42,877 nucleotides of DNA from NCBI GenBank assembly GCA_030620115.1, contig JAUXFG010000010.1, forward strand, positions 1 through 42,877. Reading direction: 5' to 3'. The notes below the pieces were generated by a model, which was not told where the DNA came from, did no database searches, and saw only the letters and a list, made by a program, of their open reading frames with translations. Position 1 is the stretch's first letter. Every line of letters begins with the position of its first letter. Of this stretch, positions 9,455-30,290 are shown piece after piece. Made by a program: the position numbers and the translations under genes. Source of the stretch: Candidatus Fermentibacterota bacterium. Lineage in GTDB: Bacteria > JAFGKV01.

Positions 9455-11056
9455 ATGATGAAGCTTCAAGAACGTTTCCTGCATGCTCCTCGCCAATGGA
9501 TGGGTGCCCTGGGGGACCATAGTGCCCCAGGGCTCTTGGCTCTCCTCTTCTTCTTTGGCCTCAATCTGCTGCCTGTTCTTATGCAGGGGCAAAGGGACAG
9601 CCTCGGGAATAATACCGACAGTATCTATCATTACCTGAAGCTTCTTCGTCTGCGCGGCGAGCTTGCTCCGGACGCCTCCTTCGACATGGACGTAAGACTC
9701 CCCACGGATCAGAGGCTCTACCGTCTCGTGAGTTCCCTCTCAACACGAAGCAATACGCCCCTTGTGAGGACTCTGCAGATTATCTGGTTCGTCTACAGCT
9801 TCGGATTCGTCGTTGGTGCCTACCTCCTCGGGTTCCGGATCACGAATAGCGCCTGGGGAGCAGCGTTTATTGCTGCTTCAGGATGGGGTTTCGCTCTTTC
9901 GATTGGCGGCCATTGGGGCTGGGACTATTCACCCATCGTTCCACACGATCTGGCAACGGCCTTCGTACCCTGGCTCATCCTCATCTGGCTGCGCGTACGA
10001 TCCACCATCGGTTTCATCTTGTACATGGCAAGCTTGGGAATTCTTGCCCAAGTCTATCCGACGTGTTTCGTGCATCTTGCAGCCCTCACCTTTGGTGCGC
10101 AGCTCATACGGGAGCCCACTCGGCCTTTGTTCCTGGTTGCGGGCGCTGCCGGGTTCGTGGTCGCGATTGCTCCCTTGGCATTGTCATGGGAGGGGCGCGG
10201 AGCGGTCACCGACGAGATGCTGCCCCTGTTCAGGGAGCGATTCTCGTATCTTGCGCCCGGAAGCGTCCGACAGGCCCTTTCCGAATACCGGATGTTCTTC
10301 ATGCAGCTATTGCTTGCGCTGGGAGCATCGCTACTGCTGCGAGGAGCTGCGTCCCCAGGTGGATGGCCCCTGATCCGCAGCCTCGGTTTGGTCTCCCTCT
10401 TAGCCGGCGTGGCCGGGCAGTTTGCGGTTTACTCTCCCCGTCTGGCTCCACTCTTCGTGAGTCGTGCGAGCCGTTTCTCATACATCTGGATACTTCTCCT
10501 GCAGGCCAGGGCTATGGTGCAATCTCCCCGGAAACTCCTGCGTTTCCTTGGGGTGGGGATCTGTCTCTTGAGCCTGGCGCTCAGGCCCAATCTCGCCGGC
10601 CCGGCGAAGGAGATTCTCCGAGGGATAAATATCTCGGATGCGGTAGCCCGCTGTCACATGCAGGACACGCCCGATTTCAGAGAGCTCTGTGAGTGGCTTC
10701 GGGCGAATACGGGTAAGTTCGATGTACTGATGACGCCGCCTGATGGGAGATACCTCTTCCTGCGGGCCTATGCACGTCGGCCCCTGGTGGGGCTGGAGAA
10801 GGACCTTGGCGCCGTCCATACGCCAGATCCCCGGTTACTGGAGATGCATGTCTTTGTGAAAAAGATGAAGAAGGCATATGGCAATAGAGATCTTGAGACC
10901 GTCATGCGTGAAGCCCGGGAGCGTGGATGCGCTGTCGCGGTATTCCCGCCGGAATGGAAAACACAAGAGGGTGCCGAATTCGCCAACGATGCGGGGTGGG
11001 TGCTTCTGTTGGGGGAAGGCAAGCAACACGATTCCGTTGCGACTACTCCTAGTTGA
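9455..11056 (+). CDS. Polytopic membrane protein, GT-C-like
   Basis: 533 residues from ATG 9455, preceded by GAGGAGTGGA (9437-9446); the frame is open upstream to 9143, so a longer form is possible. After a short cytosolic start there are about ten to twelve hydrophobic segments (e.g. LLALLFFFGLNLLPVL, IIWFVYSFGFVVGAYLL). A soluble C-terminal part of about 130 residues follows, beginning DTPDFRELCEWLRANT and including PPDGRYLFLRAYARRPLVG. The layout resembles GT-C-type membrane glycosyltransferases and related uncharacterised families, in which a C-terminal lumenal domain follows the helices. No catalytic motif could be named with confidence. It heads a group of plus-strand envelope-type genes. 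Confidence 0.6.
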   Translation: MMKLQERFLHAPRQWMGALGDHSAPGLLALLFFFGLNLLPVLMQGQRDSLGNNTDSIYHYLKLLRLRGELAPDASFDMDVRLPTDQRLYRLVSSLSTRSNTPLVRTLQIIWFVYSFGFVVGAYLLGFRITNSAWGAAFIAASGWGFALSIGGHWGWDYSPIVPHDLATAFVPWLILIWLRVRSTIGFILYMASLGILAQVYPTCFVHLAALTFGAQLIREPTRPLFLVAGAAGFVVAIAPLALSWEGRGAVTDEMLPLFRERFSYLAPGSVRQALSEYRMFFMQLLLALGASLLLRGAASPGGWPLIRSLGLVSLLAGVAGQFAVYSPRLAPLFVSRASRFSYIWILLLQARAMVQSPRKLLRFLGVGICLLSLALRPNLAGPAKEILRGINISDAVARCHMQDTPDFRELCEWLRANTGKFDVLMTPPDGRYLFLRAYARRPLVGLEKDLGAVHTPDPRLLEMHVFVKKMKKAYGNRDLETVMREARERGCAVAVFPPEWKTQEGAEFANDAGWVLLLGEGKQHDSVATTPS

Positions 11057-11248
11057 CACATGGTGATGGAAGGATACTTTCTGCCGTCACCGTGATCCCG
11101 TATGGGACGCTTCTTGACACATGCCGGAGTCCCCGCGGCGCGATAGTGTGACTGGAGGTACTTCATCAGCGATTTTCCATCACACCGATGACTCGAGACG
11201 CCCGAGCGCGAGGCTATTCACCGGCGGGAACGAGGTGCAAAGCAACCG

Positions 11249-11884
11249 ATGGATAAGCTCGTCTATGGTGCTGATCGATCAAAGGATAATGCCGCGTACT
11301 ACAAGATACCCGTGATAGGTTCATTCTTCCGGTGGCGGCTTTCCTCCGCCATCAAGCTTCTTGGCAATGGGCAGTTCAATGATGTCCTCGACATTGGCTA
11401 TGGCGGCGGCTTCCTATTTGATCGTTTGGCGAGGCATGCCTCCCGCCTCTATGGTGTCGATATGCACCAACACGGAGGCATGGTACGCCACATGCTACAG
11501 GGGAAAGGACTGACGTTATATCTTGCGAGGGGAGAGATACTCGAGCTCCCATTTGCGCACGATTCTTTTGATGCGGTCTTCTCCATGAGCCTTCTGGAGC
11601 ACATTGTGGAGATTGACAGGGCAGTTGATGAGCTTCATCGCGTCCTGCGAGTGGGGGGTCAGGCCATCGTGGGCTTCCCGCCGAGAACACGGCTCACCTC
11701 GTTGCTCTTTGATCTCATTGGTTTCGATCACAAGCGGCTCCATCCCACCGATCATGCGACTATCATCAGCTCGCTTCGAAGGAAATTCGAGGTTGAAGTG
11801 GTGAAGCATCTCCCAAGGATTGGGTCGTTATACATCTTGTGCAGATGCATCAAAACGGACAGTGTGAACTCATCTGTGGGATAG
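11249..11884 (+). CDS. Class I SAM-dependent methyltransferase
   Basis: 211 residues. Motif I is VLDIGYGGGFLFD (about 49-61), the acidic residue ending strand 2 is in LYGVDMH, and the later strand has FDAVFSMSLLEHI, typical of the UbiE/Methyltransf_11 type. The substrate is not predictable. GAGGTG lies about 10 nt upstream of the ATG. Neighbours are membrane and glycan-type enzymes, so a lipid or sugar substrate is likely, by inference only. Confidence 0.85.
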   Translation: MDKLVYGADRSKDNAAYYKIPVIGSFFRWRLSSAIKLLGNGQFNDVLDIGYGGGFLFDRLARHASRLYGVDMHQHGGMVRHMLQGKGLTLYLARGEILELPFAHDSFDAVFSMSLLEHIVEIDRAVDELHRVLRVGGQAIVGFPPRTRLTSLLFDLIGFDHKRLHPTDHATIISSLRRKFEVEVVKHLPRIGSLYILCRCIKTDSVNSSVG

Positions 11885-12317
11885 GCCCCTGGAAACAGCG
11901 GGATAGATAGATCATCTGCAGTGGCCATGCTTCCTCTCGTTCTTTCCTGGGGGAGGAGGACATTCGTTTCTCTGGAGATGAATTCCTCGGGGAATGACGG
12001 CGGTGCGGGCTTCTTGACACGAACTGTGAAGCGTCGTTCCTTTTCGCAGCAAGTTCAGCGGCGGAACAAGTTGGTCTTCGAAAGCTGACAACTGCAGCTG
12101 AGTTGCCAAGATCTGGAGAATCGTTATCTGCGCCGGGACAGGAGATGCCAGCTGTTTACTTTCGCTCCAGACAGGATCAACCAGGTCCGATCCTACGTCC
12201 TTTGGGACAGCTGTGGCTGCGCTCTGCTTCAGACTGGTGTTGAACGCTCCAGTGATCTCTCCTGACTATGTCTTTCTGCATTTCATATAGATCCACAGGA
12301 TTGGATGGTGATAGCTC
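11885..12317. other. 433-bp gap without recognised content
   Basis: No convincing gene on either strand, no terminator with a T-run and no repeat family member. I looked for a cobalamin riboswitch because the next gene encodes a B12-type enzyme; the B12 box GCCACTG is not present on the plus strand. Confidence 0.5.
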
Positions 12318-17860: not shown

Positions 17861-18352
17861 TCAATCTCTCTTCCCTTGCTTCTCGGCCAACGCTGCCATC
17901 CCATTACCCGCCACCATGCTCCAGACCCGGGGGTCCGCCAGGAAGTAGGTGACCTTCGCCTGTGCCTTTAATTCGTTGTCTACCAGGAGCTTCGCCTGGA
18001 CCTTCACAATTCTCTTGCGTACTGCTTCCACTTTGGCGCGCACTTCCACTTCAGCAGGAATAGTCACGGCTTTCTTGAGGTCGAGTTCCATTCTCGCGGT
18101 GAGCGCCGGCTTTCCCGTGGCCTGGTGCACGGCCCAATAGGCAACCTCATCCAGCATGGTGGCCTGTATTCCCCCGTGGAGAACACCGGGGTACCCGCAG
18201 TGCTCCGCGCGGGGTGTGAGCTTGCAGAAGACCTCCTCTGTTGCCTCGTCATAGTGGAACTTCATCCTGAGGCCGGCCGCATTACGCGGGCCACAGCCAA
18301 AGCAGTTGTAGCCCTCAATAAAGAGGAACGGATTCTCGATTTTTTTGCTCAT
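17861..18352 (-). CDS. PaaI-like hotdog-fold thioesterase
   Basis: 163 residues. The N-terminal CFGCGPRNAAGLRMKF stretch and the central GYPGVLHGGIQATMLDEVAYWAV (HGGI with the catalytic acidic residue on the following helix) identify the PaaI/4HBT family. These enzymes hydrolyse acyl-CoA or acyl-carrier thioesters. The ATG follows GAGGAG at about 9 nt and overlaps the upstream hydrolase stop by 4 nt. It is the last gene of the 21583-17861 operon. The substrate is not predictable. Confidence 0.9.
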   Translation of the reverse strand: MSKKIENPFLFIEGYNCFGCGPRNAAGLRMKFHYDEATEEVFCKLTPRAEHCGYPGVLHGGIQATMLDEVAYWAVHQATGKPALTARMELDLKKAVTIPAEVEVRAKVEAVRKRIVKVQAKLLVDNELKAQAKVTYFLADPRVWSMVAGNGMAALAEKQGKRD

Positions 18353-19014
18353 GATCTTCTCTCCTCAGGATTATTTTTCCTGCACCGAGCTATGGCTCGA
18401 AATACTTCCTCTGCCAAGAGCCGGTCTCCGGGAAACGAGGGATGAATGCCGTCGGGCCTGAGCTGTTCCGCATGGATATAGAGGTTCTCAAGCTCGCATA
18501 CGACCCCACCAATCGACGTGGCAACCTCCCGGATGCGGGGATTCAACTGATCTGTGGCCAGGGTGGCGGCATCTTTGGGCAATGCGGGGTGTGAACCGGG
18601 GGTGGGGAGCGTACAGAGAATCACGAAGGCATTCGGCCATCTCTGCCGAACGAGAGCAGTGATCCTCTGCATATTGGCGTTGAATTCATCAGGGTCTGAT
18701 GTCGGAGTCCTCTTGAGATCATTTCCCCCGACAAGTATCACCGCTCCGGCGACCCCATGCTTGGGACTAGGCTTTCCGCCCTGCTGATGTTCCACCATGT
18801 CCGCCAATTCCGCACTGGTGGCCCCGCACCGGGCGATAATGCGGAGCCGAAAATTCATGCCCGCCTGGTGGAGGAGCCGTGCGAGAAAGACGGGATAGCA
18901 TGCGGCGGTCAAGCTGTCCCCCAGAAGCAGGAGCTCCGGACCTGTCTGCCCGAAGCCCGCGAGGAGCCGCAAAAGTCGGCAGCGTAGCTTATGAGCAGTT
19001 CTTCGCAGATTCAC
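18349..19014 (-). CDS. SGNH/GDSL-type hydrolase
   Basis: 221 residues from GTG 19014, which overlaps the upstream stop (GTGA) and has GGGAGG about 9 nt before it; the frame is open to 19080. Block I is LLLGDSLTA, with the nucleophile Ser. Block III is VGGND. Block V is RPDGIHPSF, with the Asp/His pair. It is a lipase, esterase or deacetylase of the lysophospholipase L1/TAP type. No clear signal peptide is visible in the short form. In this operon it could deacylate a lipid or glycan precursor. Confidence 0.88.
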   Translation of the reverse strand: MNLRRTAHKLRCRLLRLLAGFGQTGPELLLLGDSLTAACYPVFLARLLHQAGMNFRLRIIARCGATSAELADMVEHQQGGKPSPKHGVAGAVILVGGNDLKRTPTSDPDEFNANMQRITALVRQRWPNAFVILCTLPTPGSHPALPKDAATLATDQLNPRIREVATSIGGVVCELENLYIHAEQLRPDGIHPSFPGDRLLAEEVFRAIARCRKNNPEERRS

Positions 19015-19952
19015 CGCCGATGCCTCCCATAGAGCCTGAACAGGAGCATGAGCCCTGCTCCTCCCATGAGGATCTCCCAAGCCAGGACGAGCAGATGCAT
19101 GCTAAAGCCTGATGATACGGCCACTTCACTGGTCAGTCCCAATTTGGAAGAGACCTCCACCCATGCCGCCTCCCACGTGCCCACCCCTGCGAGTCCCTGA
19201 ACGGGGAGCGTCGACGTCGCTTCCGCGGCGATCATGGCGGAGAGGAAGGCAACCGGATTCAAGCCACGCGGGACGAGCGCTCTAAACAAGGCGTAGAGAC
19301 CGCCGTACTTGAAGATTCGCGTCAGGATCGTCAGGCCGAGGGTGGGAAAAAGCCTTCCTTGCTCCTTCAGCAGATACGTCTCATCAGCCACCCTTTTGAT
19401 GGCGCCGCTGGTTCTTCCTTGGCCCTTCAGCCTTGTGAGTCTGCTTGCGAAATACAGCGCCACTGGGAGGGTAAGCACACACAGAGCTCCCCCCGCGGTG
19501 AGCACAGGCGCCCAGCCAGGGGGCAGGTCGCGAGAGAAAAACGTCAAGGCCACGAGGAGCACAATGCCCAACGAGACAACCTCTACTATGGTTGCCCCCG
19601 CCAAACAGGCGATTCCCGAGGAAACAGGTATCCGCCATACAAGCTTCATGGCGGCAGGGATGCTGGCGAGTCCTCCCCGGGCCGGCAGGAGATCAACAGC
19701 GAAACTTCGAACCCACATGAGCGGAATGAGCTGGACCCAGCGGACCCGTCTCTGCAGGAGGATGAAGTAGATGAGGGATCGTGCCACGGTGGAGAGCAGC
19801 CAGAGTACGAGGAATATGGCAAGCCCTGGTACTGACGTTTGGGCGATACGTCCTTTGATGAGCGCAAGGCCGTGCTCGCCGAGCAACAGGTATCCCAGGA
19901 CAGCCGAAATGACCACCGGGATCACCCACCGGCTTGCCCAGAATTCTCTCAT
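19011..19952 (-). CDS. Lysylphosphatidylglycerol synthase-type transmembrane (UPF0104/AglD-like) protein
   Basis: 313 residues with about eight membrane segments. The family features R-S-F-A-V-D-L-L-P-A-R-G-G (about 82-94), AEATSTLPVQGLAGVGTWEAAW near the C-terminus, and a short basic tail are present. This domain is the flippase-like half of MprF and also occurs alone next to glycosyltransferases, where it may flip or retain lipid-linked sugars. It overlaps the upstream glycosyltransferase by 4 nt and the downstream hydrolase by 4 nt, so the four genes are one translational unit. Confidence 0.87.
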   Translation of the reverse strand: MREFWASRWVIPVVISAVLGYLLLGEHGLALIKGRIAQTSVPGLAIFLVLWLLSTVARSLIYFILLQRRVRWVQLIPLMWVRSFAVDLLPARGGLASIPAAMKLVWRIPVSSGIACLAGATIVEVVSLGIVLLVALTFFSRDLPPGWAPVLTAGGALCVLTLPVALYFASRLTRLKGQGRTSGAIKRVADETYLLKEQGRLFPTLGLTILTRIFKYGGLYALFRALVPRGLNPVAFLSAMIAAEATSTLPVQGLAGVGTWEAAWVEVSSKLGLTSEVAVSSGFSMHLLVLAWEILMGGAGLMLLFRLYGRHRR

Positions 19953-21583
19953 TGCTCGTCCCGGCGCCGCGTCTGTCCGGATCCGGGAAAAGGTCTTTTC
20001 AGCCAGAGCTCCAGGTGATCGACTATGGCTTCTCTCCTGTATCCTTGCTCGAGCCGGTTCTTGAATGCAGGAAAGATATCAACCGTGGCGCTGTTCAGAG
20101 CGGAGGTAATGACCACCGCCGCCGGCGGGCTCTCCGAGATCTCCCGCAGGAATTGCTCGGCATGCCGAGTTGCCGCGGGATTGAGCACTGGCGCACCGTA
20201 GGTGGCTGGAGGCGGGGTCAAGAATGCCCAGTACTTGTAGTATCGAGTAGGGGCAAGGCGGTCCGAGAGGAAATACATGTTTTCGGCATGGCCCCAGACC
20301 AGAATGGTGGCATCCTCTGGTGTGTCTGTCTTGATGATAGTAGCGACTCTCTGTTCGGCCGTGCCCGGCATCTCCCGCCCCAAGGCGGCGAATTTCAGCT
20401 GCCACCAGCCCATGCGTGCGTGATGCAACGTGTCATCCATGGACGACCAGACCAGGACCGATACCAATAGCAGCGCTGCCACGAACTGGGATGGGGCGCT
20501 CCTCGGTGAGGGGGTGATCTGTGCCGCCAACCAGCCCACCGCCAAGCAAAGAGGTGGGACGATCTGCAGGTAATAGTGGGCATAGAACCGCATACCTGCG
20601 GTGATCCCCACCGCCGCGCCCAGGATCCAACATACAAGAAACCATCGAGTGAAGTCTCCACCTCTGCGGCTGAGGGCGCGCCACCCGCTGTGGCAAAGGA
20701 ATGCGGTGCCCGCATAGTAGAGGATGGGCATATCGTGCACCACTTTCGTGGTCTCCTGCCGCATGATTTTCCAAAGCAAGGATACCGGGGTTTGATTCCC
20801 GGCGGCGTACACCAGTGCTGTCCGTGGATTGATCATGGAGAGAAATGTCCACAGCTCGCCTTTCACGAAGAAAAAACACAGGATCGGAAGAATGGCAGCC
20901 AAGGCGCCCACTCCCAGGGAGAGAATCTGCCTCAAGGTGTCTCGAGGATTGGCCTTCATCAAGGCGATGATCCATATGAGAAGGGCTACGGCGCTGAAGG
21001 CCGCCTGCTGCTTTATCAGTATTCCCGCGACGACAAGGAAGCCTGCGCAGAATAGGCGGATTGGAGACCCTCCTCTTGTGCAAAGGAGCAGTACCAGGCC
21101 TGTGGTGGTGGGCAGGCCCATCCAGAATTCGTAGTTGGGGCACATGCCCTCTGCCGCAGGGGCTGTCGTGGCGAGGACGAACGCGAACCCGGCCCAACGG
21201 GCTGGTCCTGGACCCCAGAGCCGCCTCGCTCCCCACATGATGACCGCCAGATGGAGCATGTTCCAGAGCAAGGCAAAGAGATTGAGCCCGATCACAGAGG
21301 CGCCGCACAGACGGATAATGACGGCGGTGATGAAGAAGGATCCTGGCAGCTTCTGCTCGAAGGAATCCCTGTACGGTACCATGTCGTGGTTCAGCAGCAT
21401 GGCGTTGTACGTAATGCCGCCCACATCCTGGTTTTCGGCGGGAGAGCTGAGATTCCCGAAATGGCTCCCCGCGAGAAGCACGAAGATCAACAGATCGATA
21501 AGAATTTCGCCTCTTCTCATCTTGTCACCGAGCCTTTTCGAATCGTTTCCCGCCTCGAGGAGATGGCGCAGGATGAGGGCCAT
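19949..21583 (-). CDS. GT-C superfamily (ArnT/PMT-like) membrane glycosyltransferase
   Basis: 544 residues. The start at 21583 is supported by GGAGG 8 nt upstream. After a short cytosolic start and one helix there is an extracytoplasmic loop with the acidic pair needed by GT-C enzymes (NQDVGG, then DSFEQKLPG, close to the PMT/ArnT pattern Y-x-D-x-x-E/Q-x-K-x-P). Ten or so further helices and a soluble C-terminal part of about 130 residues follow (IKTDTPEDATILVWGHAENMYFLSDRL). It probably transfers a sugar from a polyprenyl-phosphate donor. First gene of its operon. Confidence 0.83.
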   Translation of the reverse strand: MALILRHLLEAGNDSKRLGDKMRRGEILIDLLIFVLLAGSHFGNLSSPAENQDVGGITYNAMLLNHDMVPYRDSFEQKLPGSFFITAVIIRLCGASVIGLNLFALLWNMLHLAVIMWGARRLWGPGPARWAGFAFVLATTAPAAEGMCPNYEFWMGLPTTTGLVLLLCTRGGSPIRLFCAGFLVVAGILIKQQAAFSAVALLIWIIALMKANPRDTLRQILSLGVGALAAILPILCFFFVKGELWTFLSMINPRTALVYAAGNQTPVSLLWKIMRQETTKVVHDMPILYYAGTAFLCHSGWRALSRRGGDFTRWFLVCWILGAAVGITAGMRFYAHYYLQIVPPLCLAVGWLAAQITPSPRSAPSQFVAALLLVSVLVWSSMDDTLHHARMGWWQLKFAALGREMPGTAEQRVATIIKTDTPEDATILVWGHAENMYFLSDRLAPTRYYKYWAFLTPPPATYGAPVLNPAATRHAEQFLREISESPPAAVVITSALNSATVDIFPAFKNRLEQGYRREAIVDHLELWLKRPFPGSGQTRRRDEQ

Positions 21584-21909: not shown

Positions 21910-22110
21910 TCATCCACCATGATGGAGGTGGATTGCCCTCACATCTGCTCCGTCGGGGATTCTGTGCTCGTCGTAGTCATCTTTGGGGACAAACTCACCG
22001 TTTATTGTGACGGTAATCAGAGAGAAGCGGTAGCCCATGGCATCCAGCACGTCCTGAGCGGTCATCCCGTCGCGCCATTCGAGCCTCGTTCTCTCGTTGA
22101 CCACTATCAT
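21910..22110 (-). CDS. ThiS/MoaD-like sulfur-carrier protein
   Basis: 66 residues with the beta-grasp pattern of ThiS/MoaD (start MIVVNERTRLEW, core VTINGEFVPKDDY, then I-P-D-G-A-D-V-R-A-I) and the functional C-terminal Gly-Gly (HHGG). The C-terminus is adenylated and thiocarboxylated by an E1-like enzyme; such a gene lies 7 nt upstream. In this operon it most likely supplies sulfur for the tungstopterin dithiolene of the aldehyde oxidoreductase. A role in thiazole synthesis is less likely because no thiG or thiH is nearby. The exact family (ThiS or MoaD) cannot be decided by eye. Confidence 0.83.
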   Translation of the reverse strand: MIVVNERTRLEWRDGMTAQDVLDAMGYRFSLITVTINGEFVPKDDYDEHRIPDGADVRAIHLHHGG

Positions 22111-22117
22111 GGGGAAT

Positions 22118-22711
22118 TCAGCTCATGAGAAGCTCGATGGCCACGTTCGCCTGCATGTTCGCCACGATGGCGACCCGGGCCGAACATAGCCCTAGATCGA
22201 GATCCGACTCCATGTCGCCGCAGAAAATAATATTCCCGGTGCGCGTGACACCTAGTTCGTTCGTACGCCCCAACCCGGCTACACCATTTCCGCTGATGAT
22301 GGGACGATCTGGGAATGCCATACACCAACTCCTTATCAGCCACATCTTCCCATCTGCCCGATCGAAGGCTTCTATAAGGATGTCGGCCTTGCCAAAAAGC
22401 TTGGCAACGTTCTCTGGACTGATCTCACGGATATGCACGTCTAGCCGGATATCCGGGTCTATGGCTTTCAGATGCTCACTCAGGGCTTCTGTCTTGTTCC
22501 TGCCGATATCCCCCTGGAAGAAGTATTGCCGATTCAGATTCGACAGTTCCACACGGTCGGAGTCTGCGAGGATCAGATGACCGATGCCGGCACGGGCGAG
22601 AGCTACTGCTGCATTGGATCCAAGCCCACCGCAGCCGGCGATTCCCACGCATGCTTGTTGCAGGACTCTCCTCATGCCCGGGACATTCCTGGCGAATAGC
22701 CCCTCGGTCAT
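22118..22711 (-). CDS. ThiF-family (short, E1-like) adenylyltransferase
   Basis: 197 residues, the short ThiF form. The nucleotide-binding loop is GIAGCGGLGSNAAV, the Arg/Asn-finger segment is DSDRVELSNLNRQYFF, the Asp region is IEAFDRADGKMWLI, and the C-terminal part has FCGDMES...LCSARV. It lacks the CxxC zinc pairs and rhodanese domain of MoeB-type proteins. It would adenylate the Gly-Gly tail of the small carrier encoded immediately downstream. Its position directly after the aldehyde oxidoreductase genes (18 nt after the stop) suggests service to the metal-pterin cofactor, but this is inference. Confidence 0.88.
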   Translation of the reverse strand: MTEGLFARNVPGMRRVLQQACVGIAGCGGLGSNAAVALARAGIGHLILADSDRVELSNLNRQYFFQGDIGRNKTEALSEHLKAIDPDIRLDVHIREISPENVAKLFGKADILIEAFDRADGKMWLIRSWCMAFPDRPIISGNGVAGLGRTNELGVTRTGNIIFCGDMESDLDLGLCSARVAIVANMQANVAIELLMS

Positions 22712-22729
22712 ACGCGCCCCGGCACTCGA

Positions 22730-24715
22730 CTACTCCTGATCCTTCTCCACAATGACGACCAGCTCAGGCAAGTCGATACCCAGCTCTCTGAGTCTTTCTA
22801 TCTTCGGAACGCCGTTTCTTGTCCAGCCACGGCGTATGTACACCGCATCCATGACTTTCTCATACTGGTCTTCCCGATATCTACGGAGAATCCCTACTCT
22901 CTCTTCAGTAATCTTGCCGTCAGGATCCACACCGATGATTTCTTTCAACTGCTTGTCGTAGCGCTCTGCTCGTGATTCATATTCCTTCACCGTCACAGGG
23001 CCCATTGCTCGGTAGGGCATATGATCATCCTCACGTGCCCCGTAGCCCAGCATCCGGCACATTACACGCTGCAGATTGTAGACTCGTGCCGATTGATCGA
23101 GCATCTTGCTTTCATCCAATTCAATTCCTGTCATGCCCTCAAAGAATTTGAAGTAATTGTCAACATGCTCAGGTATCTTATGTGGCTCGTCAGTGGCATA
23201 ATTATCCGCCGGCACGACATCATTCCAGCATAGCTTACATAACCCCATGAGGCCGAACCATGTTCTCCAGAGAGGAAAATAATGCAGGGCCTCGGCCTTA
23301 TCTTCGAAGGTTGGGATTTGATTGTTGACCATGTCCATGAATATGAGCCAAGCCTCATCATGCTGCGGCCCCTTGATGGCCATGCCATATCCTGCCTGTT
23401 GGGCTAATGATTCCTTGCACACATACTCGGAGGTCTCCAGCCCTTTCGACTCCATGCCGATATCATGGAGAAAGTCCGGATCAGCGCCATACTCCTTGAC
23501 CCATTTCTGCTTGAGCCAGCGAATCCCCTGGCCGACATCAACGCCAAAACCTCTTCCATCGGCCATCTGATGCAGCAGCTCCAGAGTTTCATTCGTTGCT
23601 CCGAAATGGAGCTCCAGGCCGCCCGTATGCTCTGTAGTGATGGCCCCGGCTTCAAAGCTCTCCATGACAAATGCGATTGTGGTAGCGGCCGAGATCGTGT
23701 CGATACCATAGGTGTCGCAGTAGAAGTTGAACTCTGCCAAAAAATCAGCATCAAAGCATCCCATATTTGCCGCACCGGCGGCGGTCTCATACTCCGGCCC
23801 ATCCACACATACTTTCTGACCTCTGTAGGGACCTGTCTTGAGTTCAAAGTCGTCTATGGTCTTGGCGCAGGCCATGGAGCAGCCTTTCCAACAGCCATCC
23901 GCCTGTCCCTGGGTGAAGTATCGCGCCTTCAGCATCTTGGAGTTGATTCTCCATGTCTCGGGATGAGTCCCGAACTGATAGTTGTGGACGGGCAGGAGAT
24001 CATATGCATCCATCACATCCACGATGTTGGCGGTTCCGACTTCACGCATTCTGCACTGATCCTTGTCCAGGACAGCCATCTCGGCATTCACCTTCATGCC
24101 GTGATCACGGATCATCTGAGGATCCAGGGGGTGATTGAGATCGTCAACGATCTCAATGGCTCCCGTCGGACACACAAATGCGCACGCGGTACACCCGATG
24201 CAATGTGGGTCGACTTCTCCGAAGGGCATGGTGAGATGCCGTTTGATCCCGCGCCCGGCGAAATCGATGATCTTCTCCAGCGCAAACTCACGACATGCAC
24301 GGACGCAGCGCCCGCAGAGAATACAAGCTTGGGGATTCTCATCCGTCAGGTTGCTGGTGAACCGGGACTCCGTGATCCCACACATCTCGGCAACATACTT
24401 GATGGCAGGCACGTTGGGCCACCGTCCCAGATACATCTCAGCGAGGATCTTACGGTGATTCACCACCGGTTCGGAGTTGGTGTACACCTCTATTTCTTCC
24501 CGCACAGGGTAATTGCATGAAGTGACGAGCTTTCTCCGACCGCGGACTTCAACCTCACACAAACAGAGTCGGCAGGTCCCCGTTGGCGTCAGATCCTTGT
24601 GATGGCAAAGGGTCGGAACAGTGACGCCCGTCTTCTTTACTGCATCAAGGAGGTATGATCCCTTCTGGACCGAGATCTCTTTGCCATCTATGGTGATCTT
24701 GATCTTATCTGCCAT
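22730..24715 (-). CDS. HoxU/NuoG-like ferredoxin fused to the C-terminal domains of tungsten aldehyde oxidoreductase
   Basis: 661 residues. Residues 1-80 are a [2Fe-2S] domain (C37, C48, C51, C67). Two [4Fe-4S] motifs follow, C131-x2-C134-x2-C137-x3-C141 and C172-x2-C175-x2-C178-x3-C182, as in HoxU and the N-terminus of bifurcating hydrogenases. From about 226 it aligns with AOR domains 2 and 3: GTANIVDVMDAYDLLPVHN matches the start of AOR domain 2, then C275-x3-C279-x3-C283 plus C493 or C496 for the AOR cluster (AOR usually has CX2CX3C), GPEYE (306-310) and a candidate catalytic His (H452). The C-terminus ends like AOR (RRGWTRNGVPKIERLRELGI). The pterin-binding AOR domain 1 is absent here and is encoded two genes upstream. 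GGAGG precedes the ATG. Confidence 0.92.
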   Translation of the reverse strand: MADKIKITIDGKEISVQKGSYLLDAVKKTGVTVPTLCHHKDLTPTGTCRLCLCEVEVRGRRKLVTSCNYPVREEIEVYTNSEPVVNHRKILAEMYLGRWPNVPAIKYVAEMCGITESRFTSNLTDENPQACILCGRCVRACREFALEKIIDFAGRGIKRHLTMPFGEVDPHCIGCTACAFVCPTGAIEIVDDLNHPLDPQMIRDHGMKVNAEMAVLDKDQCRMREVGTANIVDVMDAYDLLPVHNYQFGTHPETWRINSKMLKARYFTQGQADGCWKGCSMACAKTIDDFELKTGPYRGQKVCVDGPEYETAAGAANMGCFDADFLAEFNFYCDTYGIDTISAATTIAFVMESFEAGAITTEHTGGLELHFGATNETLELLHQMADGRGFGVDVGQGIRWLKQKWVKEYGADPDFLHDIGMESKGLETSEYVCKESLAQQAGYGMAIKGPQHDEAWLIFMDMVNNQIPTFEDKAEALHYFPLWRTWFGLMGLCKLCWNDVVPADNYATDEPHKIPEHVDNYFKFFEGMTGIELDESKMLDQSARVYNLQRVMCRMLGYGAREDDHMPYRAMGPVTVKEYESRAERYDKQLKEIIGVDPDGKITEERVGILRRYREDQYEKVMDAVYIRRGWTRNGVPKIERLRELGIDLPELVVIVEKDQE

Positions 24716-24717
24716 GA

Positions 24718-26601
24718 CTACTGTACCTCCACTGCATCAAACCTGCAAACCTCATAGCAAATGCCGCACTTGATGCATGTATCTTGATCAATTACATGTA
24801 TCTTCTTCGGTTCGCCAGCGATGGCATCAACAGGGCACTGTTTGGCACAGAGTGTACAACCTGTGCAGTTGCCCTCACTGATGCGGTAAGAGATGAGCGC
24901 CTTGCAATGACCGGCCGGGCATCTCCGATTCCTGATATGCTCTTCATACTCCTCCCGGAAATAGCGAATCGTACTGAGTACCGGATTGCCGGCGGTTCCT
25001 CCAAGCTGGCACAGGCTCGTTTCATTGACCGTCTTGGCAAGCTCCTCCAGGAACTCTATGTCGCCTTCCCGCCCTTCTCCGTTGCAGATCCGTGTCAGAG
25101 TTCTGTACAGAGAGAAGAGGCCCTCTCTGCATGGCGTGCACTTGCCGCAGGACTCATCCATCAGAAAGCTCACGAAATACCGAGCGATATCCACCATACA
25201 TGTCCGATCATCCATGACAATCATGCCACCGGAACCCATCATGGAGCCGGCCTCGGTCAGGGAATCGAAATCAATGGGCATATCAAGCTTCTCCGCAGGT
25301 ACGCATCCTCCGGACGGCCCGCCGGTCTGGACCGCTTTGAACGCTCGCCCATTGAGGATACCCCCGCCTATGTCGTATATGATGTCACGGAGCGTCACAC
25401 CCATGGGGACTTCCACGAGCCCTGTGTTGTTGATATCGCCAACCAGTGAGAAGACCTTGGTCCCGGATGACCCACCCCACGGGTTGTCCGTGACATCGCC
25501 CGTGCCGATGGAAGCAAACCACCGAGCGCCCTTGTCCATGATGACGGGTATGTTCGCCCAGGTTTCTACATTGTTGAGCACGGTGGGCTTGTCCCGATAA
25601 CCGTACTCCACATTGTGCACATACTTCGCCCGAGGCTCTCCGGCCTGGCCCGACATGGAGGCCATGAGTGCGGTAGACTCGCCGCACACAAATGCTCCGG
25701 CGCCGCGGTGAATGTGAATATCGAATTCGAACTCGCTGCCCATGATGCTCTTGCCAAGAAGGCCGCAGGCTCGCGCATCATCGATGGCTTTTTGCAGACG
25801 GACCAGCGCCAGTGGATACTCCTTGCGGAGATATACGAATCCTTCCTTTGCTCCGATCGCATAAGCACCGATCATCATGCCTTCGATCACGGTGTGTGGA
25901 TCCGTTTCAATGATGCTTCGGTCCATGAATGCTCCGGGATCGCCTTCATCCGCATTGCACACGATATACGGGGTTTCCTTGCGTTCCAGGGCAGCCTCTT
26001 TCGCAGATTGCCACTTCACGCCTGCGGGAAATCCTCCGCCGCCGCGGCCGCGGATAGCCGATGTCAGGATTTCCTTGATGACCTCATCTGGCGAGACCGA
26101 TTCCAGCACGTTCCGAATCGATTCGTAGCCTCCTCTGGCTATGTAATGGTCGATATTCTCCGGATCGATCAGTCCCTTGTTGCGAAGGGCTATCAGCTGC
26201 TGCTTGCTGAAGAACTTGATCTCATCCATGGTTCGGTTGATTGCGCCGGACACCGGGTCGCGGTGCATGAGCCGCTCCACCGGTTCTCCCCCTATCAGAT
26301 GTTGTGCAACGATCTCAGGAATATCCTCCTCGCTGACCTTCTGATAGAAAATGCCTTCAGGCTGCACCACGACGATGGGTCCCATTGCACAGAAACCATT
26401 GCATCCCGTGCCCACTACGAGGAATGTATCCTGAAGACCCCTTTCTCTGATGGCGCGAGAGAGGGCGTCACGGACATCAAATCCCTTGGCGGCGACACAG
26501 CCGGTTCCGGTACAGACCATCAACATTGCTTTATATTGCTTGAACTCGGCGTTGATTCGAGTCGAAATAGACGCCAGATCCTTCATGAGTATCTTCGACA
26601 T
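24718..26601 (-). CDS. NuoF/HydB-like NAD(H)-binding flavoprotein subunit
   Basis: 627 residues from ATG 26601, 4 nt after the upstream stop; the frame extends to 26655 over the previous gene. Domains: an N-terminal thioredoxin-like [2Fe-2S] domain (C30, C35, C67, C71); the FMN/NADH domain with RGRGGGGFP (184-192) and CNADEGDPGAFMDRS; a SLBB segment; the [4Fe-4S] site C485-x2-C488-x2-C491 with C531; and two C-terminal [4Fe-4S] ferredoxin motifs at 579-589 and 609-619. This is the layout of HydB in bifurcating hydrogenases and of HndC, rather than plain NuoF. It would pass electrons between NAD(H) and the ferredoxin chain of the neighbouring aldehyde oxidoreductase halves. The stop is followed by the next ATG after 2 nt. 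Confidence 0.95.
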   Translation of the reverse strand: MSKILMKDLASISTRINAEFKQYKAMLMVCTGTGCVAAKGFDVRDALSRAIRERGLQDTFLVVGTGCNGFCAMGPIVVVQPEGIFYQKVSEEDIPEIVAQHLIGGEPVERLMHRDPVSGAINRTMDEIKFFSKQQLIALRNKGLIDPENIDHYIARGGYESIRNVLESVSPDEVIKEILTSAIRGRGGGGFPAGVKWQSAKEAALERKETPYIVCNADEGDPGAFMDRSIIETDPHTVIEGMMIGAYAIGAKEGFVYLRKEYPLALVRLQKAIDDARACGLLGKSIMGSEFEFDIHIHRGAGAFVCGESTALMASMSGQAGEPRAKYVHNVEYGYRDKPTVLNNVETWANIPVIMDKGARWFASIGTGDVTDNPWGGSSGTKVFSLVGDINNTGLVEVPMGVTLRDIIYDIGGGILNGRAFKAVQTGGPSGGCVPAEKLDMPIDFDSLTEAGSMMGSGGMIVMDDRTCMVDIARYFVSFLMDESCGKCTPCREGLFSLYRTLTRICNGEGREGDIEFLEELAKTVNETSLCQLGGTAGNPVLSTIRYFREEYEEHIRNRRCPAGHCKALISYRISEGNCTGCTLCAKQCPVDAIAGEPKKIHVIDQDTCIKCGICYEVCRFDAVEVQ

Positions 26602-26605
26602 GACT

Positions 26606-27880
26606 CTACCCGCGCTTTCCGTGAATGATCTTTGTGACATCTTTGGCCTGCACATTGCCGAAGACCTCGTCGCCTATCTTCACAACCGGTGCGAGGCTGC
26701 AGCAACCCAGACATGCGACGGCCTCCAGGCTGAACTTGCCGTCCTTGGTGGTGGCGCCTTGCTCGATGTCGAGCTCCCTTTCGAAGGCTTCCAGTATCCT
26801 GCCTGAGCCCCTCACGTGACAGGCCGTGCCCACACAGACCTGGATGGTTGTCTCGCCTCTGGGCTCGAGACTGAATGCTTTGTAGAACGTAGCAATATGA
26901 TAGAGCTGTGCCTTTGGTACGCCGGTGATCTTGTTCAAATGGTCAATAGAAGCTCTTGAGATGAAGCGCTCGCGATCCTGGATATCCTGCATCATTTCAA
27001 TCACATACTCGGGGTCATCGTTCCATCTCGAGATGATCTGCCGAACCTCCGCCTTGTCGGTTTCCAGTATGTCCTCAGCTTTCGGCTGTATGGCCTGGGC
27101 AACAGGACTGTCGGCAATACGCCACGCGGGGATATAGTCTCTGTTCTTGATGATCAGAGCCTTGAGCTTTTTGTTCCGGAATACGGTTCCGATTCCGCCG
27201 CGCCCCGCTTGTTTCATCCGAGGAACTTGCCGGCGCCAATCATAGAACGAGAAGTTAAGGATACCCATCCGAACGTGGTTGGCTGCACGACCGGCGGATA
27301 CCACGGCGATGTTTCGCTTGTCCATCTCATCATCGGCATACATCTCCGTCAGCTCCTCGGCCAGGAGATGTGAGTCAATGCTCTCCATGGGCGCCGTCTC
27401 GATAGTGATCCTTGAATTCACCGGATCTATGTAGACAACAACTTCATCCTTTGCCTTGCCCACGATACAAAGTGCATCGAATCCAGCAAACTTGAGGTAT
27501 GGGCCAAAATAGCCTCCGACATTGGAATCTATTATTGAATATGTCAGAGGCGATACTGATGTCACAAGTGTTTTTCCCGAACCGGGGAATGAGGCCGTTC
27601 CTCCGAGCGGGCCTGAAGAAAGACAGATAGGATTCTCTGGGCTGTCCCATCTGGTGTTCGGGTTAATCTCCTGAAACATAAACCACAGGCAAAAACCCTT
27701 TCCGCCTACCCAGAGCTCCTTCATCTGTTCCGTCACCTGTCTGGTTTCAATGACGTTCTTATCAAGATCAATTCGCAGTGCCAGATTGGCATACCCTCTT
27801 TCAAGACTGCCCGGCTCGTATGTCAGTTCCGCCAGTACTTGATGTTCGTTGCGCATCTCAGTGATGCTTCTGGTTGTCAT
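26606..27880 (-). CDS. AOR N-terminal (pterin-binding) domain fused to a NuoE/HydC-like [2Fe-2S] domain
   Basis: 424 residues from ATG 27880, preceded by GGAGG at about 7 nt; the frame is open to 28072 without conserved sequence. Residues about 30-250 are aldehyde oxidoreductase domain 1: WVGGKGFCLWFMF, SPENPICLSSGPLGGT, NVGGYFGPYLKFAGFDALCI and QAGRGGIGTVFRNKKLKAL, matching the pterin- and substrate-channel segments of AOR. Residues about 276-424 are a NuoE-type domain (helical bundle, then C349-x4-C354 and C390-x3-C394, VCVGTACHVRG and CLGCCSLAPVV). The catalytic rest of AOR is encoded two genes downstream on a different fusion. First gene of the operon. Confidence 0.92.
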   Translation of the reverse strand: MTTRSITEMRNEHQVLAELTYEPGSLERGYANLALRIDLDKNVIETRQVTEQMKELWVGGKGFCLWFMFQEINPNTRWDSPENPICLSSGPLGGTASFPGSGKTLVTSVSPLTYSIIDSNVGGYFGPYLKFAGFDALCIVGKAKDEVVVYIDPVNSRITIETAPMESIDSHLLAEELTEMYADDEMDKRNIAVVSAGRAANHVRMGILNFSFYDWRRQVPRMKQAGRGGIGTVFRNKKLKALIIKNRDYIPAWRIADSPVAQAIQPKAEDILETDKAEVRQIISRWNDDPEYVIEMMQDIQDRERFISRASIDHLNKITGVPKAQLYHIATFYKAFSLEPRGETTIQVCVGTACHVRGSGRILEAFERELDIEQGATTKDGKFSLEAVACLGCCSLAPVVKIGDEVFGNVQAKDVTKIIHGKRG

Positions 27881-27933
27881 AAACACCCTCCCGACATGTG
27901 CAGTGCTCCTTCTTGTGATTCTTGGGAAAATGC

Positions 27934-27952
27934 TGTCTATAGTGTTGTCTAT
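27934..27952. promoter_or_regulatory. Direct heptamer repeat upstream of the aldehyde oxidoreductase operon
   Basis: TGTCTAT occurs at 27934-27940 and again at 27946-27952 (period 12), that is ATAGACA twice on the coding strand, 54-72 nt before the first gene. It could be an operator or chance. No convincing -35/-10 pair was found near it. Confidence 0.25.
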
Positions 27953-28119
27953 GAGATTCTTCCTTTCATCCGTAGTCTGATGTCGTCGTTTCTCTCCTGA
28001 TCTTGCCACATCACAAGCTGTTGTGGGAGCAGCGAAAACCGTGAACCGATTCAAACCGGCACACCTGATCAACCCCGTGCAGACGCGGAGCGATTTCGTG
28101 GCGACAGCTTCAAAAGGAT

Positions 28120-29103: not shown

Positions 29104-30123
29104 TCATCCGCGAGCCGTCCGCCAGAGGAGCTTCAACAGAGAGGGTGGGTGGAAAAAGAGGCTGGAGAGCAGGGCGCAGTTGTGGGTACACCAGCATCCT
29201 CCGCCAGCGATGAATCGACGTTGGGCTTTCCAGGCGGGATCGCCCAGAAGCTCAGGGAGCGATGAATCGGCGAGACTGCCAGGGGGCTCCAACATCTCAC
29301 AACTGCCCGCTCTCTTGTCGGCCCAGACGACGATATGGTTCGAACCGCCCAGACAAGGAATCACCTGTCTCTTCTGTTCCAGAATGGCGAGGCTTGTCTC
29401 CCAGAGCAGTCGGTGATAGCCGGCCAGCAGCCGCCGAGCAAGAGGGCCGGATCCATACGAGTATTGCTTCAATTCGTGCAAGATGATGGGAAGGCAGCTC
29501 TTAAGTCTCTCAAGAGAAGGGAGTCTCAAGGAAGGGTCGTTTGGATCACCGCGCAAGAGGATCAATGAATGCGCATCAGGGCCCTGTGAGCGGACCCATG
29601 GAAGGAAGTCGGGCAAGGTGTCGATATTCTCCTCACAGATGACGGTATTGATCTTCACTGCAATGCCGTCCATGGCTCTCACATTCCGGAAAGTGTCCCA
29701 CGCGCGCTCCCAGCTTCCCGATGCACGAAGCCGATCATGCATATCCTTGGGCCCATCTATTGATATGGAGAGGATCAGCTTGCCGTGGAAGCGTTTTCGG
29801 ATCTTTCCCACTGTGCGACAGACACGGTCACTATCCCAGCCATTCGTAGGGATGCTGAGGATCTTCGTTCTGAACAGCCCGCATAGTTCGGGCAGGTCGT
29901 CTCTGAGGAATGGTTCTCCGCCGCCGATATCGAGCCACATGAGCTCGGGCAGAGAATTCGCCAGCGAGGCAAAGAAGCCAAGCTCCGGTTCGTGATGTGC
30001 CGCACGTAAGAAACATGTTCTGCATGAGAGGTTACAGCGCGAGGTTACATGGAGTATGAGATAGCTCGGCTTATGTGTGAGCCAATGGCGGAAAAAGAAG
30101 CGCGGGAATGACATGAAATGCAC
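29104..30123 (-). CDS. Radical SAM protein with SPASM-like C-terminal cysteines
   Basis: 339 residues from GTG 30123, which has GGAGG 11 nt upstream; ATG 30114 is an alternative and the frame is open to 30285. The cluster motif is TSRCNLSCRTC (CX3CX2C), followed by GGGEPFLRDD and ISIDGP, typical of the SPASM/twitch radical SAM group. The C-terminal part has spaced cysteines (PCLGGSN, GSCEML, GGCWCTHNC), consistent with auxiliary cluster binding. No small precursor peptide gene was seen beside it, so a peptide-maturase role is not supported. Co-location with a glycosyltransferase suggests a sugar or lipid substrate. Confidence 0.85.
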   Translation of the reverse strand: MHFMSFPRFFFRHWLTHKPSYLILHVTSRCNLSCRTCFLRAAHHEPELGFFASLANSLPELMWLDIGGGEPFLRDDLPELCGLFRTKILSIPTNGWDSDRVCRTVGKIRKRFHGKLILSISIDGPKDMHDRLRASGSWERAWDTFRNVRAMDGIAVKINTVICEENIDTLPDFLPWVRSQGPDAHSLILLRGDPNDPSLRLPSLERLKSCLPIILHELKQYSYGSGPLARRLLAGYHRLLWETSLAILEQKRQVIPCLGGSNHIVVWADKRAGSCEMLEPPGSLADSSLPELLGDPAWKAQRRFIAGGGCWCTHNCALLSSLFFHPPSLLKLLWRTARG

Positions 30124-30263
30124 GATGTTCTCTTCCTCCGTGATCAAAGGCGTGACAGTAATCGGTAGAGGGCTGCTCGAGACCGAACCCGGAAGGCGCA
30201 TAAATCCCACGAGGCGAGGCCCAGAGAAAGAGGCCGGCGGGAGGTTCCTTTTTGTTCCACAGG

Positions 30264-30290
30264 TTGACGTGATGGGAAGTTGCACATAAT
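30264..30290 (+). promoter_or_regulatory. Candidate promoter for mutM
   Basis: TTGACG (30264-30269) and CATAAT (30285-30290), each five of six to consensus, are separated by only 15 nt, 45 nt upstream of the start codon. The short spacing lowers confidence. Confidence 0.38.

Follow-up and report, generated by a model that had tools for sequence, protein, structure and literature searches.

The operon and its divided enzyme

The window, that is, the whole stretch of 42,877 nucleotides analysed here, carries on its minus strand, from 21910 to 27880, five tightly packed genes, which code for three proteins that we call A, B and C and for ThiF and ThiS homologues. These genes and their parts are listed below in transcription order, together with the flanking genes.

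29104-30285, minus strand: upstream flank, radical-SAM-like gene (54% to 10919-11941 of the sister-genus locus L022)
26606-27880, minus strand: protein A, whole gene (424 aa from the ATG at 27880; open frame 26606-28072)
27143-27880, minus strand: AFOR_N (WOR/AOR domain 1), residues 1-246 of protein A (Pfam PF02730, E 1.1e-47)
26615-27052, minus strand: NuoE/HydC-type [2Fe-2S] domain, C-terminal half of protein A (Pfam PF01257, 2Fe-2S_thioredx, 2.7e-45)
24718-26601, minus strand: protein B, HydB/BfuB-type (Pfam and NCBIfam; the ORF opens at 26655)
22730-24715, minus strand: protein C, whole gene (661 aa)
24140-24715, minus strand: HoxU/BfuA-like ferredoxin domain, N-terminal third of protein C (Pfam Fer2_4, Fer4_7)
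22730-24160, minus strand: AFOR_C (WOR/AOR domains 2-3), remainder of protein C (Pfam PF01314, E 2e-86)
22118-22711, minus strand: ThiF/MoeB-like adenylyltransferase (PF00899; NF006395 above cut-off)
21910-22110, minus strand: ThiS/MoaD-like sulfur carrier, WorX-like (TIGR01683 above cut-off), ending in HLHHGG (Gly-Gly)
18349-21583, minus strand: downstream flank, three genes at 18349-19080, 19011-19952 and 19949-21583 (blastp against the sister-genus loci L021 and L022, 36-55% identity)

The protein A gene likely begins at the ATG at 27880, where the preliminary description had already placed it, and the protein B gene likely at the ATG at 26601. That description had claimed that an aldehyde oxidoreductase (AOR) is divided here between domain 1, fused to a NuoE-like [2Fe-2S] domain, and domains 2-3, placed behind a HoxU-like ferredoxin, with a HydB/NuoF-like gene lying between the halves. 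Our results agree with it on all these points. AFOR_N is present only in protein A, where 2Fe-2S_thioredx follows it, and AFOR_C only in protein C, behind Fer2_4 and Fer4 domains that account for one [2Fe-2S] and two [4Fe-4S] sites; the Pfam profiles found no AFOR_C in protein A and no AFOR_N in protein C, and a complete AOR in either protein, which would have refuted the division, is thus not what they see. Both AFOR domains are encoded by one operon with complete coverage, and the HydB-containing electron module is nested between the two halves of the split worL. As AFOR_N precedes AFOR_C in transcription order, the N-to-C order is kept; the arrangement, which had been called permuted, is a split and nested one.

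Protein B bears an N-terminal [2Fe-2S] thioredoxin-like domain, the Complex1_51K (FMN/NADH) and NADH_4Fe-4S domains, and a C-terminal 2x[4Fe-4S] domain (Pfam), and its PDB matches are HydB (7q4v_B), WorB (9mqx_B) and 7t2r_B. The best PDB match for the NuoE domain is 9mqx_C, from a bifurcating WOR, while the best sequence match for the HoxU domain is 9mqx_A, which it also matches in fold. The donor of the electron module could not be named, HydB, WorB and the NiFe-Bfu B subunit all scoring alike against protein B. There is no WorS gene within the operon, and the role of ThiF is probably in cofactor maturation. The window genome also codes, at L024 (G000:C200), for a further HydB homologue with 57% identity to protein B, near which lie a HydA/NuoG-like ORF of 808 aa and a NuoE-like ORF.

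The place of the cut can be defined by comparison with single-chain enzymes. Residues 1-244 of protein A align to residues 1-244, and residues 186-658 of protein C to residues 246-721, of L021, a single-chain orthologue from the sister genus, and in the multiple alignment the split interrupts the linker between domains 1 and 2 of the single chain. Protein A departs from the AOR sequence right after KALIIKNRD, and protein C rejoins it at DDLNHPLDP, a few residues past the last HoxU cluster cysteine. Against the Pyrococcus furiosus AOR (PfAOR), the protein A part aligns with residues 9-210 and the protein C part from residue 240 onward; we take residue 210 to be the end of domain 1.

The putative ligands are strongly conserved. 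All 16 Fe-S cysteines of protein C (12 in HoxU and 4 in AFOR_C) are invariant in 35 sequences among the matches listed, those of AFOR_C being C275, C279, C283 and C493, with the spacing CxxxCxxxC and not CxxCxxxC. Cysteines 349, 354, 390 and 394 of the NuoE domain are invariant in 14 sequences, and the cysteines of the NuoF [4Fe-4S], N-terminal [2Fe-2S] and C-terminal 2x[4Fe-4S] sites of HydB are kept, with few exceptions, wherever the domain is present. The FMN domain and the BfuBC cluster cysteines are present and conserved as well; the ligands were not individually mapped on a structure, and the cluster that is partly non-Cys-ligated was left out. Four residues, Thr243, Glu313, Tyr427 and His448 in PfAOR numbering, mark the aldehyde-oxidising WORs (PMC13328260). 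They align to T228, E310, Y431 and H452 of protein C, and none of them varies among 33 split and 62 single-chain sequences. DxxGxD and DxxGLC are pterin-binding motifs, and the first of them is kept in the clade; in the second, the Asp (PfAOR D489) is replaced by Gly in 31 of the 33 split and 59 of the 62 single-chain members. The claim that both halves keep the conserved AOR residues therefore holds for the motifs and the four cluster cysteines, but not for this aspartate. The single-chain relatives conserve 177 positions at 97% or more, and 161 of these are also kept in the split forms.

Pairwise distances across the split loci are correlated (r 0.84 between AFOR_N and AFOR_C, 0.90 between AFOR_N and HoxU), as would be expected for the parts of one complex, although shared descent gives the same result. 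The AF2 model of protein C (pLDDT 85.6, pTM 0.80) matches in fold both AOR structures and WorA (9mqx_A); that of protein A, of moderate quality (pLDDT 71), matches AOR domain 1 as well as chains of the NuoE type.

Recurrence, degrees of fusion and descent

In a sample of 386 genomes, a search with protein C found 5 others that carry the full-length HoxU-AFOR_C fusion, with 57-77% identity, and a scan of 84,980 species genomes gave at least 35 named loci with this full-length fusion among its best 80 matches; our search patterns could miss divergent members of the split clade. In their records, the loci among the matches listed carry the names of about 13 phyla (Bacillota, Krumholzibacteriota, Aminicenantes, Sumerlaeota, Eisenbacteria, Elusimicrobia, Myxococcota, Bdellovibrionota, Fermentibacteria/Aegiribacteria, Coatesbacteria, Cloacimonadota, Armatimonadota and a proteobacterium), the labels being those of the records, nearly all of them MAGs. 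The suggested check of whether the pair of split fusions recurs was thus strongly positive, over many independent contigs. Since the same split is found across about 13 phyla, we consider the split enzyme a real architecture and not a sequencing error. This architecture, a split WOR with a nested electron module, is apparently undescribed. The preliminary description had considered it new, and in the open-licence literature we found no description of a split, fused or nested WOR; however, it is not unique to the window genome, as it belongs to a recurrent clade that spans many phyla and several degrees of fusion.

HoxU-AFOR_C fusions usually have a separate AFOR_N gene or an AFOR_N fusion upstream, and at every locus whose upstream part is on the contig AFOR_N comes first. 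Counting the complete loci among the matches listed, the remaining ones being cut by contig ends, we found AFOR_N, NuoE, HydB and HoxU-AFOR_C as separate genes at 10 loci (in one of them the HydB N-terminal domain was unrecognised); AFOR_N-NuoE, HydB and HoxU-AFOR_C at 7 loci and in the window; and AFOR_N-NuoE-HydB followed by HoxU-AFOR_C at 7 loci, with 3 more in which HydB is without its N-terminal [2Fe-2S] domain. A reduced form, in which only the N-terminal part of NuoE remains, without the [2Fe-2S] site, and the C-terminal clusters of HydB are gone while the FMN/NADH domains are retained, is found at L047, L048, L075 and L100; here the NuoE remnant and NuoF are fused to AFOR_N at 3 loci and form a gene of their own at 1. 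The simplest split form, AFOR_N followed by HoxU-AFOR_C with no NuoE or NuoF nearby, is that of L050/L090 (Coatesbacteria, apparently one contig). This series, graded from four genes to two, suggests how such a complex may have been consolidated. WorS is present at only 1 (L075) of the 40 tabulated split loci, and ThiF, often with ThiS, adjoins many of them. At L050/L090 the next gene codes for a phosphoglucomutase, and L078 codes for an odd AFOR_N protein of 520 aa that retains a remnant of the NADH_4Fe-4S domain.

In a tree of concatenated AFOR_N and AFOR_C (101 rows) the split and single-chain forms separate almost cleanly. Its outgroup branches are very long, and the root and the direction of change remain unresolved. 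More than one origin of the split was considered, as the free tree requires two changes, yet the tree that holds all split forms together has a likelihood higher by 33.6 log units (AU p 0.878). A single origin is thus not rejected, and the split forms may, from their sequences, be placed in one clade. All the structurally known WORs are single-chain, and for this reason a change from single to split is the natural reading, as an inference.

The window does not group with its own family in this tree, but with G221 and G079, from other families, and with a Bacillota MAG. The WorL of the sister genus (two genomes of the window's family) lies deep among the single-chain forms, and at the same chromosomal place as the window operon the two sister-genus loci, L021 and L022, carry an intact single-chain WOR with WorS. 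The gene order of the downstream flank is kept there beside the intact WOR, and the upstream radical-SAM-like gene, which has a weak partial match to the MoaA profile, is also found beside it; neither flank is part of the enzyme. The insertion of a cassette within the window lineage was discarded, as the tree puts the window with split forms of unrelated families and phyla. As both genomes of the sister genus have an intact WOR in this position, the resident enzyme was probably replaced in place by a split homologue, and this replacement probably occurred by transfer.

Proposed enzyme, electron path and cofactor

We propose, with a probability of about 0.7, that these genes specify a tungsten-type aldehyde oxidoreductase of the WOR family, whose large subunit reassembles from two chains and which is wired directly into a bifurcating Bfu module of the HydABC type. 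The assembly, the electron path, bifurcation, tungsten and the aldehyde substrate are all inferred, without protein data on catalysis or on W-pterin binding, and as far as our searches show there is no characterised protein in the split/single-chain clade. The two polypeptides would rejoin across the former boundary between domains 1 and 2, so that the BfuC (NuoE) chain would hold domain 1 and the BfuA (HoxU) chain domains 2-3, with BfuB (HydB) joining both. Electrons would pass from the W site to the [4Fe-4S] cluster of AFOR_C, from there to the HoxU clusters located just ahead of AFOR_C, and on to the BfuBC core, whose FMN and Fe-S clusters may split them between NAD+ and ferredoxin, or run the reverse reaction. 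The WorS polyferredoxin of the known multi-subunit WORs would have been dispensed with, and ThiS and ThiF would serve as maturation genes. In PMC9304861, the Bfu family is defined by a BfuBC core with FMN and six clusters (five in the FMN subunit and the [2Fe-2S] of BfuC), non-bifurcating homologues are said to lack clusters B2-B5, and an A1/A2/A4 cluster set, which the [2Fe-2S] and two [4Fe-4S] sites of the window HoxU domain match, is ascribed to a group that includes Wor-Bfu. It has been proposed that the BfuC cluster moves during bifurcation; therefore the location of domain 1 on BfuC raises a more speculative idea, still open, that the split could mechanically couple catalysis to the bifurcation gate.

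Other explanations have to be weighed. An ordinary AOR gene broken by misassembly or a frameshift, or in decay, might be suspected in a contig from a genome in 296 contigs, the more so as nearly all the other split loci come from MAGs; yet both fusions are in frame with their domains intact, and many assemblies made independently show the same architecture, at 55-77% identity to the window and with the catalytic residues conserved. This recurrence rules out an assembly artefact, which the preliminary description had left as a possible refutation, and we give it practically no weight. It is also possible, though we doubt it, that the split WOR works with an NADH-dehydrogenase module that does not bifurcate, so that aldehyde electrons go to NAD(P)+ as in the NAD-linked Class III WORs and the extra clusters are relics. 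The endergonic step is unproven even for the Acetomicrobium mobile WOR (PMC12096430), and the four reduced loci keep the FMN/NADH domains without the NuoE [2Fe-2S] and the HydB C-terminal clusters, which makes NAD-only variants probable in the clade. We predict from their sequences that these four are such non-bifurcating variants, and given their losses bifurcation cannot be general among the split forms. In the window, however, none of the cluster cysteines checked in HydB and NuoE is missing, and the complete loci conserve them too, which would not be expected for relics; for the window enzyme we thus maintain the bifurcating reading.

What cofactor the reassembled enzyme would hold is less certain. 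ThiS/ThiF-type genes have been linked to W-pterin maturation (PMC1779556, PMC13328260), and some other split loci adjoin genes for MoeA, MoaA, a ModE-like regulator and the tungstate transporter WtpABC, whose WtpA scores above the equivalog cut-off. Profile searches of the window genome (98% complete), however, revealed neither MoaC nor WtpA, no convincing MoaA, and only a weak MoeA. MoaC is absent in 11 of the 28 genomes with the WOR clade, compared with 1 of the 21 genomes with canonical AORs that served as a yardstick (Fisher p 0.007, a value that is indicative only, since related genomes are not independent). Those 11 (G000, G001, G002, G221, G079, G106, G143, G280, G371, G108 and G244) include, besides the window genome G000, both sister-genus genomes, the split-bearing G221, G079 and G106, and G143, a one-contig genome, 99% complete, in which the WOR clade is present; MoaA is absent in the MoaC-lacking genomes tested, and 8 of the 11 are without any MoeA match. 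The standard home-made W-bis-molybdopterin may thus not be what the window host uses; its cofactor could be taken up from outside or come from a different pathway, or the site could have been re-purposed. The clade-wide D489G change points the same way as the missing MoaC, whereas most of the other AOR pterin and active-site motifs are kept, ThiS and ThiF adjoin the genes, other split loci adjoin WtpABC, MoeA or MoaA, and 17 of the 28 hosts have MoaC; we regard a non-standard cofactor as unlikely. In the same tentative spirit, and with no greater confidence, it can be imagined that the clade, split and single-chain, works with an imported or a different pterin/metal cofactor in hosts without the MoaA/MoaC route. 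Taken together, MoaC absence and the D489G change leave open which cofactor is used in the MoaC-lacking hosts. The earlier statement that the halves must assemble around one W-pterin is accordingly plausible, but it is not safe for a host without MoaC and a convincing MoaA. Since MoaA and MoaC are missing in many hosts, the one-contig genome included, the identity of the carried cofactor is a directly testable question.

At six single-chain loci, mostly from Clostridia (L103, L107, L109, L111, L124 and L142), common upstream genes resemble, by eye, FAD amine-oxidase and ferredoxin components. These neighbours are a lead to a possible amine-derived aldehyde as substrate.

Should the proposed assembly be confirmed, it would show that a W site may form between two subunits, with its halves on different electron-transfer chains, and the divided active-site subunit would provide a natural link between catalysis and the electron-bifurcating core.

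Relation to known systems

The structurally known WORs found by PDB comparison are all single-chain around the pterin, and a survey of 4,064 WOR sequences required that one chain contain both the N-terminal (IPR013983/PF02730) and the C-terminal (IPR001203/PF01314) domain (PMC13328260). The window, with AFOR_N and AFOR_C on two proteins, does not meet this requirement, and for that reason the survey probably overlooked the split enzymes. The closest solved complex is the electron-bifurcating A. mobile AmWOR1 (Class IV WorLSABC, PDB 9mqx), in which WorSL nanowires feed a WorABC plug, Class IV being defined as WorLS with the three WorABC subunits (PMC13328260). Both systems have a WOR unit together with WorA (HoxU-like), WorB (HydB) and WorC (NuoE). 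In AmWOR1, a single chain makes up WorL, which is linked to the module through WorS, and WorA, WorB and WorC are separate subunits, whereas in the window the two parts of WorL are fused to the WorA- and WorC-like domains and there is no WorS; moreover, the AmWOR1 WorL is only distantly related to the window AFOR_C (E 3e-13). The split form most likely works like a Class IV WOR. Of the Class IV features, the WorA, WorB and WorC homologues are present, as domains or proteins, and the single-chain WorL, WorS and the five separate subunits are not; because single-chain WorL and WorS are missing, we would not class it simply as a Class IV enzyme.

Class II-like WORs (WorS-WorL), such as those of L021/L022 and of Alkaliphilus transvaalensis (L108), are single-chain members of the same clade, with 57-63% identity over AFOR_C. 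They share with the split form the active-site residues and the frequent adjacency of ThiS/ThiF, but their large subunit is intact, a small polyferredoxin often accompanies it as a separate protein (WorS is often directly upstream of WorL in the single-chain clade members), and there is no NuoE/HydB module.

With the Bfu enzymes, as they appear in the part of PMC9304861 consulted here, the window has in common the ligands of the BfuBC core; the Type 2 BfuA also has only one [2Fe-2S] and two [4Fe-4S] clusters, and in Type 1 the catalytic domain is fused to BfuA, as in protein C. That part of the work contains no Bfu enzyme with a WOR unit fused to BfuA, or with a catalytic unit shared between BfuA and BfuC. 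Finally, Class II benzoyl-CoA reductase (BamB with BamGHI) combines, as the window does, a WOR-family subunit with a HydABC-like module, but as separate subunits and with extra Hdr-like proteins, whereas the window enzyme keeps the aldehyde-type Thr/Glu/Tyr/His set.
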